Source of the DNA: Gammaproteobacteria bacterium
GTDB lineage: Bacteria; Pseudomonadota; Gammaproteobacteria; Eutrophobiales; Eutrophobiaceae
Assembly: GCA_030829955.1 (NCBI GenBank)
Contig: JAURNY010000018.1
Span: forward strand, 1-64,000
DNA length: 64,000 nucleotides
Direction of reading: 5' to 3'
Part shown: piece by piece, positions 3,439 through 51,494 of the stretch
How the letters are laid out: each line of letters begins with the position of its first letter
How positions within the stretch are numbered: the stretch's first letter is position 1
Program-made: the position numbers and the translations under genes
The notes under the pieces: generated by a model
Seen by the model: the letters and a program-made list of their open reading frames with translations, nothing else
Database searches by the model: none
Told to the model about the DNA's origin: nothing

Positions 3439-4818
3439 ATGTTACTAGAACATATCACTGAACAAACTTTCCTGTTTTTAATTATAGGCATCTTGATAGG
3501 GGCCTTTATTATTTGGTTGCTGATGCGTAGGCAGCTTCAACAACAGCAACAAGACAATGCAACAGTAAAGCAGGCACTTGCGGTTGAATCTGAGCGAGTT
3601 CAACAAAAAGATACTCGACTTGATGAATTAAAATGCGAGCTGGAAAGAAGTTTATCAAAAAATCAGTCACAACAATCTGATCTTGAGCAATACAAGATCA
3701 ATCTCGCAGAGTTAAACACAACTCTGCTGGAAGAACGCAAACAATCAGAAGAAAAATTGGCCATGCTGCAACAGGCAGAACAGAAGATGGCAGAGGCATT
3801 TGAAAATCTTTCAAATCGAATTTTGGAAGAAAAAAGTAAAAAATTTACTGATCAGAACAAACAGCATATCGGTGAAATACTTAATCCATTACGCGAACAG
3901 CTTGGCGACTTTCGTAAAAAAGTCGAGGACGTTTATGAAAAGGAAACCAAGGATAGACTATCCCTATTTCATGAAATAACACATTTGAAAAGCCTGAATG
4001 AAAAAATGAGCCAGGATGCAATTAATCTTACTAATGCATTAAAGGGGGAAAGCAAGACACGCGGAGATTGGGGTGAAGTAATATTAGAAAAAGTGCTGGA
4101 ACATTCGGGCTTAACAAAAGGTCGGGAGTATGAGATTCAAGCCCAATATCGTGATAATGAAAATAAGATACTTAAACCTGATGTTATAGTACACCTGCCG
4201 AATCAACGAGATGTAGTTATAGACTCCAAAGTTTCATTGGTTGATTATGAACATTACTATGCGTCTGAAGATGAGCACGAAAGGCAACAGGCATTAAAAC
4301 GACATGTGACGTCTATCAAAACGCATATAAATGGTTTATCAAAAAAGAATTATGAAGAGCTGGTTGGACTTAATTCCCTAGACATGGTTTTGATGTTTGT
4401 ACCGATTGAGCCTGCATTGATGCTGGCATTTGAAGCAGATGACAGTTTGTTTCAGGAAGCTTTCAAACAAGGTATCTTTTTGGTGAGTCCGTCTACATTA
4501 AGTATGAATCTGCAAATTATTCATAATATCTGGCGTTATGAGTATCAGAACCAGAATGCACAGGAGATCGCAAAAAGTGCAGGGGACTTGTACGACAAGT
4601 TTACCGGTTTTATTCAAGCATTAAATGACATAGGAGATAAGCTGGATAAAGCTAAAGGTGCTTATGATACTGCTTATGGACGATTAATAGATGGAAAAGG
4701 CAACCTCGTATCCAGAGTTGAAAAAATTCGCGAGCTTGGCAGTCTAAAAACGAAAAAGAATTTGCCCGATGATATACTGCTCAAAGCTTTACCGGATAAA
4801 GAGGAAGAAACTGATTAA
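3439..4818 (+). CDS. rmuC: DNA recombination protein RmuC
   Basis: RmuC-family proteins limit inversions at short inverted repeats in E. coli and have a nuclease-like fold. The protein has an N-terminal membrane segment at about residues 11-30, a long glutamine- and glutamate-rich coiled coil to about residue 190, and the conserved RmuC domain with TRGDWGEVILEKVLE and DVIVHLPNQRDVVIDSKV-type blocks. The length of 459 residues is normal. The radical SAM gene begins 6 bp after its stop, so the two are probably cotranscribed. Confidence 0.92.
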   Translation: MLLEHITEQTFLFLIIGILIGAFIIWLLMRRQLQQQQQDNATVKQALAVESERVQQKDTRLDELKCELERSLSKNQSQQSDLEQYKINLAELNTTLLEERKQSEEKLAMLQQAEQKMAEAFENLSNRILEEKSKKFTDQNKQHIGEILNPLREQLGDFRKKVEDVYEKETKDRLSLFHEITHLKSLNEKMSQDAINLTNALKGESKTRGDWGEVILEKVLEHSGLTKGREYEIQAQYRDNENKILKPDVIVHLPNQRDVVIDSKVSLVDYEHYYASEDEHERQQALKRHVTSIKTHINGLSKKNYEELVGLNSLDMVLMFVPIEPALMLAFEADDSLFQEAFKQGIFLVSPSTLSMNLQIIHNIWRYEYQNQNAQEIAKSAGDLYDKFTGFIQALNDIGDKLDKAKGAYDTAYGRLIDGKGNLVSRVEKIRELGSLKTKKNLPDDILLKALPDKEEETD

Positions 4819-4824
4819 TTTGTA

Positions 4825-5898
4825 ATGGCTGAGCAGAAGCAACGTATTAAGGGTAGAGGCACAGCAAGCAAACCTGTTGCACGTTATCTTTCAGAACAAC
4901 GCGAATCATTTGACGACGGCTGGGAACGGGAAGAAACAGAAACGAAATTGCTTACTACTATATTGCCCGAAAAAGCAAAATCGATCATATCCAGAAACCA
5001 GTCTCCTGATATCCCTTTTTCACAATCGATTAATCCGTATCGAGGTTGTGAACATGGTTGTGTTTACTGTTATGCGAGACCTGCCCATGCTTATATGGAT
5101 TTGTCACCAGGGCTGGATTTTGAAAGTAAGCTTTTCTACAAAGCCGATGCAGTTGAATTACTAGAAAAGGAATTATCAGGGAAAAACTATGAATGTAGTC
5201 CAATTGTATTGGGAAGTAATACGGATCCATATCAACCGATTGAACGTGAATATGAAGTCACGAGAAACATAATTAAATTACTCATGAAGTATAATCACCC
5301 TTTAACGATTATTACCAAGTCGTCTCTTATTGAGCGTGATACTGATTTACTGGCAGTAATGGCAGAAAAAAATCTGGTGAAAGTCTATTTATCGATCACG
5401 ACTCTAGACAATTCGTTAATGCAAAAAATGGAACCTCGATCAACTGCCCCTATCAGACGCTTAAAAACTATACATCGTTTACATGAGGCAGGTATTAGAA
5501 CCGGGATGATGTTTGCCCCGGTGATACCTTTCATTAATGATAGTGAAATGGAAGCAATACTAGAAAGAGGCGCAGCATCGGGCATAGAAAGTTCATCTTA
5601 TGTATTGTTACGACTACCATATGAAATAAAGGAATTATTTCGAGAATGGCTAGAGTTACATTATCCATTAAAGGCCAGTCATGTGATGAGTCTTATTCAA
5701 CAATCACGTGGTGGTAAAGATTATGATTCAGAATTCTCGCAACGTTTATTTGGTACAGGACAATTTGCCGAAATAATCAGGAGTCGTTTTAGCAAAATTT
5801 GCCAAAAACTTAATTTAAACATGGGTGAGAAAGATGAATTAAACTGTACAGACTTTATAAAACCTGTGCGTACTGGTCAGCAACACGCATTATTTTAA
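4825..5898 (+). CDS. PA0069-family radical SAM protein
   Basis: This is a radical S-adenosylmethionine protein of the PA0069/Rv2578c group, distantly like spore photoproduct lyase. The cluster-binding cysteines Cys75, Cys79 and Cys82 sit in NPYRGCEHGCVYCYARP, which has CX3CX2C spacing. The following GSNTDPYQPIE and ITKSSLIERD blocks are typical of the group. The reaction is not established for this family. It starts 6 bp after rmuC without a clear ribosome site, which points to translational coupling. Confidence 0.88.
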   Translation: MAEQKQRIKGRGTASKPVARYLSEQRESFDDGWEREETETKLLTTILPEKAKSIISRNQSPDIPFSQSINPYRGCEHGCVYCYARPAHAYMDLSPGLDFESKLFYKADAVELLEKELSGKNYECSPIVLGSNTDPYQPIEREYEVTRNIIKLLMKYNHPLTIITKSSLIERDTDLLAVMAEKNLVKVYLSITTLDNSLMQKMEPRSTAPIRRLKTIHRLHEAGIRTGMMFAPVIPFINDSEMEAILERGAASGIESSSYVLLRLPYEIKELFREWLELHYPLKASHVMSLIQQSRGGKDYDSEFSQRLFGTGQFAEIIRSRFSKICQKLNLNMGEKDELNCTDFIKPVRTGQQHALF

Positions 5899-11899: not shown

Positions 11900-12316
11900 A
11901 TGGAAACAGATTTTACTCCTTATTTCTCAATCATTGGTGGCGCACTAATAGCGTTTTCTGTATTAATGATGCTCGCCTTTAATGGTCGCGTGACTGGCAT
12001 CAGCGGATTTATTCATAGTCTCGCAAGAGGAAAGAAGTCAGTTGATAATGGTTTGTTTATTGCGGGAATTATTTTAGGTGCATTTTTGTATATGTTATTT
12101 AATAGTGGTTCTGTCGTTGTGAGAGAAGACTATTCTATTTTGTTACTTATTCTTAGTGGTCTGTTTGTAGGCATTGGAACCCGATTGGGATCTGGTTGTA
12201 CGAGCGGTCATGGTATTTGCGGTATAAGTCGATTTTCACTTCGATCTATTATTGCGACTATGACGTTTATGTTGTTTGGTGGAATCTCTACTTATTTAAT
12301 TCGGCACATTTTCTAG
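11900..12316 (+). CDS. YeeE/YedE-family transporter subunit 1
   Basis: This is half of a two-gene transporter of the YeeE/YedE (Sulf_transp) family, whose members import thiosulfate or related sulfur compounds. The 138 residues form four or five membrane segments. The diagnostic block GSGCTSGHGICGISRFS near residue 95 carries the conserved cysteines. The partner follows 4 bp later. The substrate is inferred from the family and from the nearby sulfite reductase; it is not shown directly. Confidence 0.85.
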   Translation: METDFTPYFSIIGGALIAFSVLMMLAFNGRVTGISGFIHSLARGKKSVDNGLFIAGIILGAFLYMLFNSGSVVVREDYSILLLILSGLFVGIGTRLGSGCTSGHGICGISRFSLRSIIATMTFMLFGGISTYLIRHIF

Positions 12317-12320
12317 CTTT

Positions 12321-12743
12321 ATGAAGACTAAAATAATTACGTTAATTTCAGGTATTTTATTTGGTTTCGGTATAACCATCTCACAAATGTCAAACCCTTA
12401 TAAAGTATTAAATTTTCTGGATGTCACTGGAAGTTGGGACCCTAGTCTTGCACTTGTAATGGCTTCTGCATTATTGATAACCATACCCGGTTACTTATTG
12501 ATATTGAAGATGCAGCGGCCGATTCATATAGAATCGTTTGATTTGCCGACAACGAAGCAAATAGATTTAACATTGATCATTGGTGCAATTTGCTTTGGTA
12601 TTGGCTGGGGAATTGCGGGTTATTGTCCCGGTCCTGGTTTGGCTGCTTTGGCTTTCAACTGGAAAGAGGCGTTCCCATTTCTCATTGCGGTAATCGCTGG
12701 AGGATATATCAGTGATTTAGTAATGAGAGCAATGAATAAATAA
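12321..12743 (+). CDS. YeeE/YedE-family transporter subunit 2 (DUF6691)
   Basis: This is the second half of the split YeeE/YedE transporter, with 140 residues and about four membrane segments. It has the typical opening SGILFGFGITISQM and the block GWGIAGYCPGPGLAAL with the conserved cysteine. Paired genes of this kind are widespread in proteobacteria, and together they resemble one full-length YeeE. Its end is followed directly by a strong bidirectional terminator. Confidence 0.85.
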   Translation: MKTKIITLISGILFGFGITISQMSNPYKVLNFLDVTGSWDPSLALVMASALLITIPGYLLILKMQRPIHIESFDLPTTKQIDLTLIIGAICFGIGWGIAGYCPGPGLAALAFNWKEAFPFLIAVIAGGYISDLVMRAMNK

Positions 12744-12747
12744 TAAT

Positions 12748-12774
12748 AAAAATGCCTCGTAAAGAGGCATTTTT
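12748..12774. terminator. Bidirectional terminator between the YeeE pair and ssb
   Basis: ATGCCTC and GAGGCAT form a perfect stem with a 5-base loop, flanked by A-runs on the left and T-runs on the right. It can therefore stop transcription from the YeeE pair on the plus strand and from ssb on the minus strand. Confidence 0.85.
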
Positions 12775-12796
12775 ATTATGTTGTATAAGAAAATAG

Positions 12797-13258
12797 TTAA
12801 AACGGAATATCATCATCAAAATCATCAACTGGACCATTATCGCTTGCGTGTGCAGAATTTGATGTAGCAGGTTTATTTTCTATAGGAGGCGCAGATTCAT
12901 AATTACCACTTCCACCGCCACTTCTGCTACCTAACATTTGCATTTCATTGGCGACAATCTCGGTGGTGTAACGATCAGTACCTTCCTTGTCTTGCCACTT
13001 ACGAGTTTGTAGGCGGCCCTCGATATAAATTTGCGATCCTTTGCGCAGATATTCACCAACAATTTCAGCCAGACGACCAAAGAATACAATCCGGTGCCAC
13101 TCGGTTCGTTCCTGTTGTTCACCACTATCCTTGTCACGCCAGGATTCTGCTGTTGCCAGACTCACATTGGCAACGGCTGCACCACCAGCTGTATATCGGA
13201 TATCGGGGTCATTACCTAAATTACCTACAAGAATTACTTTATTTACACCGCGTGCCAT
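12797..13258 (-). CDS. ssb: Single-stranded DNA-binding protein
   Basis: SSB covers single-stranded DNA during replication, repair and recombination. The OB fold occupies residues 1 to about 110, with [29 protein letters not shown] and [16 protein letters not shown] flexible Gly/Ser/Asn linker follows, and the tail ends in DDDIPF, the partner-binding tip. The 153-residue length is normal. The order ssb, MFS carrier, uvrA is conserved in gammaproteobacteria. I found no LexA-like site between ssb and the MFS gene. Confidence 0.97.
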
Positions 13259-26436: not shown

Positions 26437-26817
26437 TTAATGCAAAGCGTTAGGCATGGATAAATTAAAAACAGGAATTGGGGCATCAAATTCAACACCA
26501 TCATCAGAGATCATTTCATAGCTACCCTGCATGCAGCCTACAGGTGTTTCCAGTATAGCTGCACTGGTATATTTAAAAGATTCGCCGGGCATGATTCTGG
26601 GTTGTTTCCCGATTACACCATCACCCTGAACTTCTTGCATCTTGCAATTCGCATCTGTAATCAACCATCGACGGCGTAATAATGTAACAGGATGTTTTCC
26701 ATCATTTGCAATCGATATGTTATAGGCAAACACAAAACGTTTTTTCTCAGGTATGGATTGTGACTTGACATAAGTCGTTTTGGCCGTAACGTTAACAATA
26801 TAATCATTCTCACTCAT
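26437..26817 (-). CDS. apaG: ApaG (Co2+/Mg2+ efflux-associated protein)
   Basis: ApaG is a small single-domain beta-sandwich protein of 126 residues whose molecular role is unsettled. Family blocks are NDGKHPVTLLRRRWLITDAN, GVIGKQPRIMPGESFKYTS and GCMQGSYEM. It lies directly upstream of apaH. The ATG lies inside the tail of the decayed yifB reading frame, so the deletion in yifB ended right at the apaG leader. Confidence 0.95.
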   Translation of the reverse strand: MSENDYIVNVTAKTTYVKSQSIPEKKRFVFAYNISIANDGKHPVTLLRRRWLITDANCKMQEVQGDGVIGKQPRIMPGESFKYTSAAILETPVGCMQGSYEMISDDGVEFDAPIPVFNLSMPNALH

Positions 26818-26889
26818 AAGAATATTTCAACCTAAACTGACCGGCTCTGCAAGTGGCTATATTGTTCATTATGAGGCGGTAACTGTAAG

Positions 26890-27078
26890 TGATTTTTCGA
26901 TAATTAATAGCTTCAGATAGATGATTGACATTGTCCTGATTGGTATGGTTGATCTCCTTTTCGATCCATTTTATGGAGTCACTTCAGCGGGTAAGCCTCT
27001 TAACAAGTGAACTTCAACAGTGACTAGCAGTAATTGAATGCCATCACGGACGAGAGAAAATATCTTCGCAATACTCAG
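26890..27078 (-). pseudogene. Relic of yifB/comM with its middle deleted
   Basis: Minus-strand codons from 27078 read SIAKIFSLVRDGIQ, then VTVEVHLLRGLP, which is the N-terminus of the Mg-chelatase-like ATPase YifB/ComM; a TAA follows at 26971-26973. The expected start is CTG with AAGGGAG upstream, as if ATG had mutated. In another frame just below, DNVNHLSEAINYRK (about 26895-26935) matches the YifB C-terminus. The roughly 440 residues between are gone. In Pseudomonas the yifB homologue is close to ubiK and amtB. ComM is a branch-migration helicase used in natural transformation. Confidence 0.72.
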
Positions 27079-27165
27079 TTTGTCTCCCTTGATAAACATT
27101 TGAAACATGAATTTAAAATCTAATTAATACATACTCAACTAATCTTTAATGGTAATAACGTTTTA

Positions 27166-27408
27166 TTATTTTAATTTCTCTTCTAATTCCTGAACACGTT
27201 TGTGTAATGCGTCTAACTGAGTTCTGGTACGCTGCAACATGATCGTCTGTACATCAAACTCCTCTCGAGTAACTAGTTCCAGTTTAGCTAGTGAGGCAGT
27301 AAGTGCGGCTCTCAGGTTTGATTCGAGTTCGCTTTTTGCTTGTTGCATATCACTCGGTAATATTTTTCCTATATCACTAAGCAGTGCTTCTACTTGTTGT
27401 TTTAACAT
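27166..27408 (-). CDS. ubiK: Ubiquinone biosynthesis accessory factor UbiK
   Basis: UbiK (YqiC/BMFP family) is a small coiled-coil protein that helps the aerobic ubiquinone enzymes with lipid access. The 80 residues have an N-terminal amphipathic helix and a C-terminal coiled coil, with the signature LVTREEFDVQ followed by a heptad pattern to the end. I chose the ATG at 27408 because AGGA stands about 9 bases upstream and matches the family start; an in-frame ATG at 27441 adds 11 residues. It is divergent from the torF-glnK-amt block, as in Pseudomonas. Confidence 0.88.
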   Translation of the reverse strand: MLKQQVEALLSDIGKILPSDMQQAKSELESNLRAALTASLAKLELVTREEFDVQTIMLQRTRTQLDALHKRVQELEEKLK

Positions 27409-27520
27409 CACTCTATTCCTGATTTGTTGTACTACGATCATATCATGATCTGTATTGACCCACTTTGATGCGTTAATGATGAATAATTTTGAATCGTTTT
27501 AGCGCGAATAAGCAAAGTTA

Positions 27521-28444: not shown

Positions 28445-28855
<411 letters not shown>

Positions 28856-28910
28856 GGGTGTGTTCACTGTTTCCTGTTAACACAAATATTATTTTTCGGA
28901 GGAAATAAAC

Positions 28911-30155
28911 GTGGAAGCTACATTTGAATTAGCATATGCGTTAGATACCTTTTACTTCTTGGTATGTGGTGCATTAGTTATGTGGATGGCTGCCGGTTTT
29001 GCCATGCTCGAAGCTGGATTGGTTCGAGCTAAAAACACGGCTGAAATTTTAACTAAAAATATTACTCTTTACGCAATTGCCTGCATTATGTACATGGTAT
29101 GTGGTTACTCTATCATGTACGGCGGTGGTGACTTTGAGATGTTTCTGCCCGGCATTGTTGGTGATGGTGCTACAGGCGTTTCGGAAAATCCTGCAACCTA
29201 TGCTCCTTCTGCTGATTTTTACTTTCAGGTAGTGTTCGTTGCAACGGCAATGTCTATTGTTTCAGGTGCTGTTGCTGAACGTATGAAACTTTGGTCATTT
29301 TTGGTCTTTGCAGTAGTAATGACCGGTATTATCTACCCAATGGAAGGTAGTTGGACCTGGGGCGGTATGCCAGTCTTTGGTATGTATACTCTGGGTGACC
29401 TTGGGTTCTCTGACTTTGCGGGTTCAGGTATTGTTCATATGGCAGGTGCTGCTGCTGCATTAGCTGGTGTTATTGTTCTCGGTGCTCGTAAAGGCAAGTA
29501 TGCTAATGACGGCACTATAAGGCCAATACCAGGTTGTAATTTACCGCTGGCTACATTAGGTACCTTTGTCCTTTGGTTAGGTTGGTTCGGTTTCAACGGT
29601 GGTTCGGTATTAGCAACAGCAACTGTAGAAAGCGCTAACGCTGTGGCTGTGGTATTTATGAATACTAATACTGCTGCTGCTGGTGGTGCAGTTGCCGCAT
29701 TGATTCTGTCAAGAATCATGTTTGGCAAGGCGGATTTAACTATGATTCTGAACGGTGCATTGGCTGGATTGGTTGCAATTACTGCTGAACCATCAACGCC
29801 TACTGCTCTTCAGGCAACAATTTTTGGTGCCTTAGGTGGTGTTCTGGTTGTCTTTTCAATCGTCTTTATGGACAAATTGAAGATTGATGACCCTGTGGGT
29901 GCGATTTCCGTTCATGGTACCGTTGGCTTGCTCGGTCTATTACTCGTACCAGTTACCAATCAAGGTGCTAATTACTCAGGTCAGTTGATTGGCGCTTTAA
30001 CTATCTTCATCTGGGTTTTTGTGGCTTCACTTGTGACCTGGTTGATTATCAAAGCCATTATGGGTGTGAGAATCAGCGAAGAAGAAGAAGTTGAAGGTGT
30101 AGATATTAGTGAATGTGGTCTGGAAGCATATCCAGAATTCACTAAAGGCAGCTAA
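28911..30155 (+). CDS. Ammonium transporter Amt, copy 1 (no signal peptide)
   Basis: This is an 11-segment ammonium channel of 414 residues. The pore twin histidines are in SGIVHMAG and VHGTVG. Unlike E. coli AmtB it starts directly with the first membrane segment and has no cleavable signal peptide. The C-terminal tail with VRISEEEEVEGVDISECG is the P-II-responsive switch. The start is GTG with a strong GGAGG site. An intrinsic terminator follows 20 bp after the stop. The partner P-II gene is directly upstream. Confidence 0.94.
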   Translation: MEATFELAYALDTFYFLVCGALVMWMAAGFAMLEAGLVRAKNTAEILTKNITLYAIACIMYMVCGYSIMYGGGDFEMFLPGIVGDGATGVSENPATYAPSADFYFQVVFVATAMSIVSGAVAERMKLWSFLVFAVVMTGIIYPMEGSWTWGGMPVFGMYTLGDLGFSDFAGSGIVHMAGAAAALAGVIVLGARKGKYANDGTIRPIPGCNLPLATLGTFVLWLGWFGFNGGSVLATATVESANAVAVVFMNTNTAAAGGAVAALILSRIMFGKADLTMILNGALAGLVAITAEPSTPTALQATIFGALGGVLVVFSIVFMDKLKIDDPVGAISVHGTVGLLGLLLVPVTNQGANYSGQLIGALTIFIWVFVASLVTWLIIKAIMGVRISEEEEVEGVDISECGLEAYPEFTKGS

Positions 30156-30174
30156 ATTCAATTAAAGCTGAAAC

Positions 30175-30206
30175 AAAAACGGGCGCTAAACTCGCCCGTT
30201 TTTTAT
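30175..30206 (+). terminator. Rho-independent terminator after amt copy 1
   Basis: ACGGGCG-CTAAACT-CGCCCGT followed by a run of Ts is a strong intrinsic terminator. It separates the two glnK-amt pairs into different transcripts, unless readthrough occurs. Confidence 0.9.
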
Positions 30207-30321
30207 TTCATCTCTCCATAAAGTCTCTTACAATAAATTCATATTCAGATTGTTTTTTTTGAGACTAGTCTGTAATTTTTCGTTAAGAGCAAAATAGACG
30301 ACTGAAGAGTCGCAATAATAG

Positions 30322-30669
<348 letters not shown>

Positions 30670-30732
30670 TTTAATCACTTTATTTAAATATAAAAAATTG
30701 TAATAAAAATTAATTATTAGAGGTTAGTTGCA

Positions 30733-32007
30733 ATGAGGTTTTTAGTAACAATCATATGTTTATTTCCATTTAGTGTTCTTGCCGATGAATTGGATAAAGG
30801 TGATACCGCCTGGATCATTACTTCTACGGCATTAGTGTTATTCATGACTTTACCAGGACTGGCCTTGTTTTATTCAGGATTGGTTCGTGTCAAAAATGTC
30901 TTATCTGTTTTGATGCAATGTTTTGCTATCGCCTGCATGGTATCGATGATGTGGATGATTGGTGTATATGGGTTAAGTTTTGGTGATGGTGGTGAAGGTT
31001 TAAATAAGATCATAGGTCTTGGTAACTTCATGATGTTAGATATGAAACTGGAATCCATGAGTGGCAGTATTCCAGAAGTCGTCTTTTTTATGTTTCAGAT
31101 GACATTCGCAATTATTACACCGGCTCTGATCGTTGGCGGTTTCGCTGAAAGAATGCGCTTTTCTTCAGTGTTGTTATTCAGTGCAATCTGGCTGGTAGTC
31201 GTTTATGCACCGGTTTGTCACTGGGTATGGGGCGGTGGTTGGCTTGCTGATATTGGCTTTATGGATTTTGCCGGTGGCGCAGTTGTTCATATTAATGCCG
31301 GTATTGCAGCTCTTGTGGCCGCTATGATGCTGGGAAATCGACGCGGATTCCCAGAAACACCGATGATGCCACACAATATGACCTTAACTGTTACCGGTGC
31401 GTCAATGTTATGGGTAGGTTGGTTCGGTTTTAATGCCGGTAGCGCGCTGGCAGCAGATAATAATGCAGGTATGGCTATGGCGGTGACGCATATTTCTGCT
31501 GCAGCTGGTTCATTGGCGTGGATGGCTTGTGAGTGGATTAAATATGGCAAACCCAGTGTCTTGGGTATTGTTACAGGTATGGTTGCTGGTTTAGGCACGA
31601 TAACGCCTGCATCCGGATTTGTAGGCCCTATGGGTGGACTTTTTATCGGCTTAATTGCAGGTGTGGTTTGCTATATCTGTACCCATTACATTAAGCGGGT
31701 ATTGAAGATAGATGACTCACTGGATGTCTTTCCCGTACATGGTGTCGGAGGAATCCTAGGTACTTTATTGACAGCGGTATTCTATGCTAAATCATTTGGT
31801 GGATTACAAACTGGTGATGATTACTCAATCATTTCTCAATTTGGCGTGCAGATGGTTGGTGTTGTAGCGACTATCGCCTGGTGCGGTGTTTCAAGTTTCA
31901 TCATTTTAAAACTGGTAGATAAAATTACTGGTTTACGTGTTGATGAAGAGCAGGAGACTGAAGGTCTGGACATCGTTTTACACAATGAGAAGGGCTACAA
32001 TATCTGA
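30733..32007 (+). CDS. amtB: Ammonium transporter AmtB, copy 2
   Basis: This is a 424-residue ammonium channel of the classical AmtB type, with a cleavable signal peptide (about residues 1-17, ending VLA-DE) before 11 membrane segments. The pore histidines lie in GAVVHINAG and FPVHGVGG, and GLALFYSGLVRVKN is typical of the first segment. The C-terminal tail (LRVDEEQETEGLD) fits P-II control. AGAGG precedes the ATG. A terminator follows the stop. Confidence 0.95.
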   Translation: MRFLVTIICLFPFSVLADELDKGDTAWIITSTALVLFMTLPGLALFYSGLVRVKNVLSVLMQCFAIACMVSMMWMIGVYGLSFGDGGEGLNKIIGLGNFMMLDMKLESMSGSIPEVVFFMFQMTFAIITPALIVGGFAERMRFSSVLLFSAIWLVVVYAPVCHWVWGGGWLADIGFMDFAGGAVVHINAGIAALVAAMMLGNRRGFPETPMMPHNMTLTVTGASMLWVGWFGFNAGSALAADNNAGMAMAVTHISAAAGSLAWMACEWIKYGKPSVLGIVTGMVAGLGTITPASGFVGPMGGLFIGLIAGVVCYICTHYIKRVLKIDDSLDVFPVHGVGGILGTLLTAVFYAKSFGGLQTGDDYSIISQFGVQMVGVVATIAWCGVSSFIILKLVDKITGLRVDEEQETEGLDIVLHNEKGYNI

Positions 32008-50927: not shown

Positions 50928-51494
50928 ATGAGTGTTAAATCGGATAAATGGATCAGAAGAATGGCAGAAGAGAAGAAAATGATCGAGCCATTCGAAGCGG
51001 AACAGGTAAAAATCCGAGGTAATAACAAACTTATTTCTTACGGCACTTCTAGTTATGGTTATGATGTGCGTTGTTCTAATGAATTTAAAATTTTTACTAA
51101 TGTTCATTCTGCGACAGTTGATCCAAAATATTTTGATCCGAAAAGTTTTGTCGATGTAAAAAGTGATTATTGCATTATTCCCCCCAATGCTTTTGCATTA
51201 GCCAGAACAGTTGAATATTTTAGAATTCCAAGAAATGTATTAACGATTTGTTTAGGCAAATCGACTTACGCGCGTTGCGGTATTATTGTGAATGTCACGC
51301 CTCTGGAGCCGGAATGGGAAGGGCATGTGACGCTGGAATTTTCTAATACGACAAATCTGCCTGCAAAAATATATGCAAACGAAGGTGTTGCACAGATGAT
51401 CTTTCTGGAATCAGATGAAGTGTGTGAAACCTCGTATAAAGATCGTGCCGGCAAATATCAGGGACAGACAGGGGTTACCTTACCTAAAACCTGA
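50928..51494 (+). CDS. dcd: dCTP deaminase
   Basis: Dcd deaminates dCTP to dUTP, which feeds dUMP to thymidylate synthase (thyA is at 24 kb). The 188 residues show [27 protein letters not shown], and the catalytic glutamate in [15 protein letters not shown]. Ribosome site AAGGGTG precedes the ATG. The apbC-dcd order is common in gammaproteobacteria. Confidence 0.96.

Follow-up and report, generated by a model that had tools for sequence, protein, structure and literature searches.

The window analyzed here, a 64-kb stretch of DNA, belongs to an assembly of 1.885 Mb in 32 contigs with an estimated completeness of 100% (G000), and a relative of the same genus (G001, 3.1 Mb) was used for comparison. 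Between ubiK and apaG, the window carries on its minus strand an interval of 348 bp (26818–27165) without any open frame of at least 50 codons. Further along, at 28499–32007, lie what we take to be two successive gene pairs, each with a PII-like gene first and an ammonium-transporter-like gene second. The features of the ubiK–apaG region are listed in Table 1.

Table 1. Genes and comM-derived segments of the ubiK–apaG region (window positions).
Feature	Position	Strand	Remarks
apaG (PF04379)	26437–26817	-	open neighbor, downstream
comM–apaG spacer	26818–26887	-	partly similar to G001 and G019
comM C-terminal remnant	26888–26953	-	profile positions 473–494, 6.7 bits; frame differs from that of the N-terminal piece
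Stretch between the pieces	26954–26985	-	comM sequence unrecognizable; profile positions 27–472 missing
comM N-terminal remnant	26986–27063	-	profile positions 1–26, 14.1 bits; frame continues to a stop at 26971–26973
CTG where intact relatives start with ATG	27076–27078	-	codon read and alignment with relatives
Leader	27079–27108	-	partly similar to three intact relatives; in-frame ATG at 27106–27108
ubiK (BMFP, PF04380)	27166–27441	-	open neighbor, upstream

The first-pass annotation had placed the N- and C-terminal ends of comM (yifB) between ubiK and apaG in the expected orientation, and this assignment was borne out by profile scores, shuffling, ranking across the window and gene order. 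The ComM profile of 500 positions was built from the proteins of 29 relatives (30 loci, one excluded for an early frame break) and detected both pieces with the filters off. In 2000 dinucleotide-shuffled versions of the 348-bp interval, neither 14.1 nor 6.7 bits was reached, the highest score being 6.2. When the same profile was run against 2202 six-frame chunks of the 64-kb window, the two pieces were the top two distinct places (14.1 and 6.6 bits) and the next unrelated place scored 3.2 bits. Taken alone, the C-terminal piece is weak. The expectation that the fragments would align to YifB held only in part, as the profile made from relatives aligned both of them, whereas NCBIfam and Pfam recognized neither fragment on its own (35 and 28 aa). 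Pieces as short as these seldom pass the thresholds of general libraries.

The order ubiK–comM–apaG on one strand is common to G007, G019 and G029; in G001, only comM–apaG was seen, with no upstream ubiK match within the loci read. Full-length comM occupies the interval in G007 and G019, where the distance from the last aligned ubiK residue to apaG is approximately 1.62 kb and 1.65 kb, respectively, versus 348 bp in G000. The net loss compared with these two relatives is approximately 1.3 kb, one deletion and several being indistinguishable. As had been proposed, both ends are retained while the AAA+ core (Mg_chelatase domain, PF01078) is absent from the locus; hence, the stretch is a pseudogene and no working member of ComM/YifB (TIGR00368). 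The suspected change of the start codon was also found, the CTG aligning with the ATG of G001, G007 and G019 and the leader upstream of it being similar.

That the remnant has been put to a new use, either as a peptide of the 45-codon frame that the in-frame ATG would open (27108–26971, core absent) or as an RNA or a regulatory element acting on apaG, is in our estimation highly improbable. The existence of this frame, and the fact that both ends and parts of the leader and spacer are still recognizable, would agree with such a use. However, a known structured RNA was rejected, as no Rfam match was obtained at E ≤ 1, and so was a promoter or terminator signal, with one promoter-like site found, versus 2.0 on average in shuffles, and terminator-like sites absent. 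Moreover, ubiK stands beside apaG in three genomes of g17 (G017, G027 and G034), with apaG 14–67 bp past the last aligned ubiK residue, and the stretch is thus dispensable in those genomes.

The search for comM elsewhere in the G000 assembly revealed no second copy. The sole TIGR00368 match (3.9e-7) scored 28.5 bits, the cut-off being 362, PF13541 gave two matches above its curated cut-off (9.4e-10 and 1.9e-6), and PF01078 gave two matches on other contigs, covering 25 and 39 of its 207 positions. All of these candidates were rejected since they fall in frames of RadA, Lon, ClpX and an AAA ATPase according to NCBIfam, those of PF01078 sitting in ClpX and another AAA ATPase. The naming of the AAA ATPase of the PRK13341/RarA kind in G000 is below the curated NCBIfam cut-offs.

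ComEC is the inner-membrane DNA channel, DprA the ssDNA-binding loader and ComM the helicase. Matches for comM, dprA, comEC and comEA were all present in G001. Since rpoB is missing from G000 too, the absence of a gene alone proves little, and the loci were therefore inspected for comM, comEC and dprA. At the comEC locus, G000 retains the order lolC-lolD-DUF2062-exbB-exbD-lpxK-kdsB, and approximately 300 bp take the place of the 767-codon gene of G001. A comEC profile built from ten proteins recognized only the C-terminal tip, in two frames (profile positions 698–734 and 732–760), and 0 and 1 of 2000 shuffles reached the respective scores; the second piece (7.0 bits), matched by the one shuffle, is weak. 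The place of dprA, predicted from synteny, is at the start of contig C29, where the order topA-smg-LysM-def-fmt-rsmB is kept and approximately 620 bp are found versus 1110 bp in G001. Another stretch read alongside this locus held nothing matching these genes. Remnants corresponding to positions 6–73 and 270–369 of the G001 protein lie there in two frames with the core missing, and neither score was reached by any of 2000 shuffles (the profile being the single G001 protein). No dprA match was obtained when G000 was searched with PF02481.

The C-terminal part of dprA, 100 codons free of stops, matches DprA_WH (Pfam) at 4.7e-13. Over this stretch, identity to seven intact relatives is 38–50% for G000 versus 46–57% for G001, being lower than that of G001 with each of the seven (46% between G000 and G001), and the motif LIKQGAKL, shared by the eight intact rows, is LIKQSVKL in G000. 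As the part is stop-free, dprA may have been inactivated late, or this piece may still be produced. The longer remnant hints that dprA died last; chance deletions would fit equally. comEA gave no match in G000 at E ≤ 1e-4, and its locus was not located in this gapped assembly, so its absence could be a gap. The earlier suggestion of a partial loss of the DNA-uptake system thus understated the damage: comEC and dprA are also reduced to wrecks where they once stood, and comEA is unmatched. Altogether, the interval very probably holds a dead comM, with its core deleted, its start changed and its ends out of frame, and this gene is one of several decayed transformation genes in the lineage.

Could the genes be whole in the organism and only appear broken through faulty assembly or binning? 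The fragmentation into 32 contigs and the missing rpoB, despite the estimated completeness of 100%, speak for such an artefact; we nevertheless regard it as very unlikely, because the comM remnant lies inside a contig of 198,882 bp and is flanked by open genes, the comEC and dprA remnants are also found between neighbors in the usual order, and all three remnants carry frame changes and substitutions, more than gaps.

The examined pilus genes of G000 stay while the genes for DNA import and integration decay. The PilQ secretin scored above its cut-off (511 bits versus 284), the frames of PilO, PilP and PilQ are whole, and PilN was matched, its frame running to the edge of the stretch fetched. 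RadA is also full-length (TIGR00416, 627 bits, cut-off 403), which would suit the reading that the recombination helicase alone had been lost and transformation continued via RadA and RecA with a partial defect as in Acinetobacter. According to the part of the report available to us, inactivation of comM in A. baumannii indeed lowers transformation without abolishing it (PMC11472951). With comEC and dprA wrecked too, however, there is very little chance that G000 is such a case, and in the same portion of that report, inactivation of comEC drops strains under the transformability threshold (PMC11472951). The decay of several transformation genes remains the preferred reading. ComM had been regarded as a part of the uptake system; its loss stands, while its role, from general knowledge and the available part of the same source (PMC11472951), is in integration and not in uptake. 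It is the loss of comEC, rather than that of comM, that speaks for the loss of uptake. Judged from these genes, G000 cells would be unable to import free DNA or to integrate DNA via this route.

The four genes were then surveyed in 53 genomes of the family, with a partial or broken match counted as present. comM was present in 42 genomes (E ≤ 1e-10), in 39 of them above the cut-off, dprA in 41, comEC in 41 (E ≤ 1e-5) and comEA in 39 (E ≤ 1e-4). All four were matched in 34 genomes, ten others were without one or two (several of these being incomplete), and nine had none, namely G000, all six g17 genomes, and G066 and G070 of g4. The completeness-corrected sizes of these nine (1.43–1.98 Mb) are the nine smallest in the survey, the other 44 genomes measuring at least 2.03 Mb, a thin margin, with the sizes of relatives given to the nearest 0.1 Mb. 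The association of loss with size gave a Mann–Whitney p of 2.9e-6 with kinship ignored; three independent pairs agreed in direction (p = 0.25, three pairs being unable to reach significance).

A tree of 51 genomes was made by a quick method. As rpoB is unmatched in G000, the tree was based on genes from the lpxK locus; lpxK, the marker of the comEC locus, was found in 51 of the 53 genomes, and G064 and G067, which are without it, were omitted, leaving eight of the nine genomes devoid of the four genes. Starred support was given to 33 of 48 inner branches, 9 were open, and the position of g17 among its neighbors was open. On this tree, the absence of all four genes requires three changes: in G000, in the five g17 rows, and in G066 with G070. 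The tree cannot separate gain from loss, but the remnants and the gene place shared by relatives point to loss. Among the 33 well-rated genomes of the family, 10 gave no rpoB match, perhaps since the contig carrying this gene often escapes binning.

The comEC locus was readable in seven of the nine genomes (in G070 the contig stops short of it, and lpxK is unmatched in G064), and each of the seven had lost the gene, with the neighbors in the usual order (tblastn, E ≤ 1e-3). Among those read, the comEC tip was visible to the profile in G000 only; no comEC remnant was detected under E 0.2 in the corresponding gaps of five g17 genomes and G066. In G066 (L148, 3869–4771), approximately 900 bp separate exbB from the DUF2062 gene at the former comEC place, any remnant being unrecognizable. 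A gap of 378 bp between ubiK and apaG was also seen in L062 (UBA7357; 4623–5000). comM remnants were looked for in the gaps of L062, L058, L038, L039 and L042, and none was recognizable. PilQ was above the cut-off in seven of the nine genomes, partial in G070, and not so in G064 (66% complete) or G066.

Defects also occur in larger genomes. All five genomes of genus g11 (G011, G023, G032, G036 and G058; loci L150–L154; 2.2–3.6 Mb) have at least one transformation-gene defect, in differing states, and hence decay is not limited to genomes below 2 Mb. In G011, comM contains a stop and comEC is broken; comEC is broken in G032; G058 has comM in pieces; and in G036, comM is in pieces and dprA is unmatched. 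G023 lost comM and most of comEC, of which a weak N-terminal piece (6.4 bits) and a clear C-terminal piece (87.8 bits) were detected, and its dprA is broken. On G036:C17, the N-terminal part of comM lies at 11998–13023, and separate C-terminal parts occur twice on the same contig, at 51277 and at 74920, which suggests rearrangement or duplication.

A putative course of events can be outlined. Once comEC fails, no DNA would reach the cytoplasm, and the ComM helicase and the DprA loader would lose their main use and erode. Deletions inside a dead gene would be tolerated, and those reaching ubiK, apaG, smg, the LysM gene or exbB would be purged by selection, so gene ends may outlast cores because deletions into neighbors are selected against. 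Such a pattern fits comM and dprA of G000 and comEC of G023; it is not matched by comEC of G000, of which only the C-terminal tip was seen, or by dprA of G023, where the damage extends into the LysM gene.

Our verdict is that the comM stretch is an ordinary pseudogene and one instance of transformation genes being lost convergently as genomes were reduced. A broader proposal, which we advance only tentatively and hold to be possible rather than probable, is that comEC, dprA, comM and comEA are lost as a block whenever a lineage of the family shrinks to approximately 2 Mb or less, at least three independent times, with the secretin mostly kept. If this is true, the end of transformation would be tied to shrinkage of the genome, and the family would offer near-replicate stages of one process, from intact through half-broken (g11) and remnants (G000) to clean (g17). 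The remnants at three loci of G000 show a loss under way; G001 of the same genus still has the genes, and related small genomes have undergone the loss as well. A larger set of genomes would make it possible to test whether transformation is lost before the genome shrinks, after it has done so, or as the driver of that shrinkage.

That small genomes lose transformation genes is already known, and decay of a gene is an ordinary event; of moderate note here are the joint decay of the module, the legible remnants and the recurrence in related small genomes. The available part of one report describes comM of A. baumannii as inactivated in part of the strains, often by insertion of a mobile element, other transformation genes rarely accounting for the variation (PMC11472951). 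The same helicase gene is thus lost in a gammaproteobacterium in both cases, but through mobile elements there and through deletion and substitution in G000, where comEC and dprA are wrecked too. In Piscirickettsia salmonis, another gammaproteobacterium that lost the DNA channel, comEC is interrupted by transposable elements, and comEA, comM and dprA are intact as far as the accessible portion of the report goes (PMC12955456), whereas G000 has remnants of comM and dprA and an unmatched comEA. ComEC was also lost in endosymbionts and intracellular bacteria, e.g., Buchnera and Wigglesworthia, in the section of the source at hand (PMC6299819). A transformation gene is lost from reduced genomes in these cases as well, but the remnants of G000 are legible, its genome is 1.9 Mb, and a relative of the same genus in which the genes are retained is available for comparison. 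The literature search found no paper on the transformation genes of this family; such papers may exist.

Finally, the loss of the genes in part accompanies low G+C. The G+C content of the lpxK locus is 33–38% in eight of the nine genomes without any of the four genes and 46% in G001, and some gene-bearing relatives are at 37–39%.
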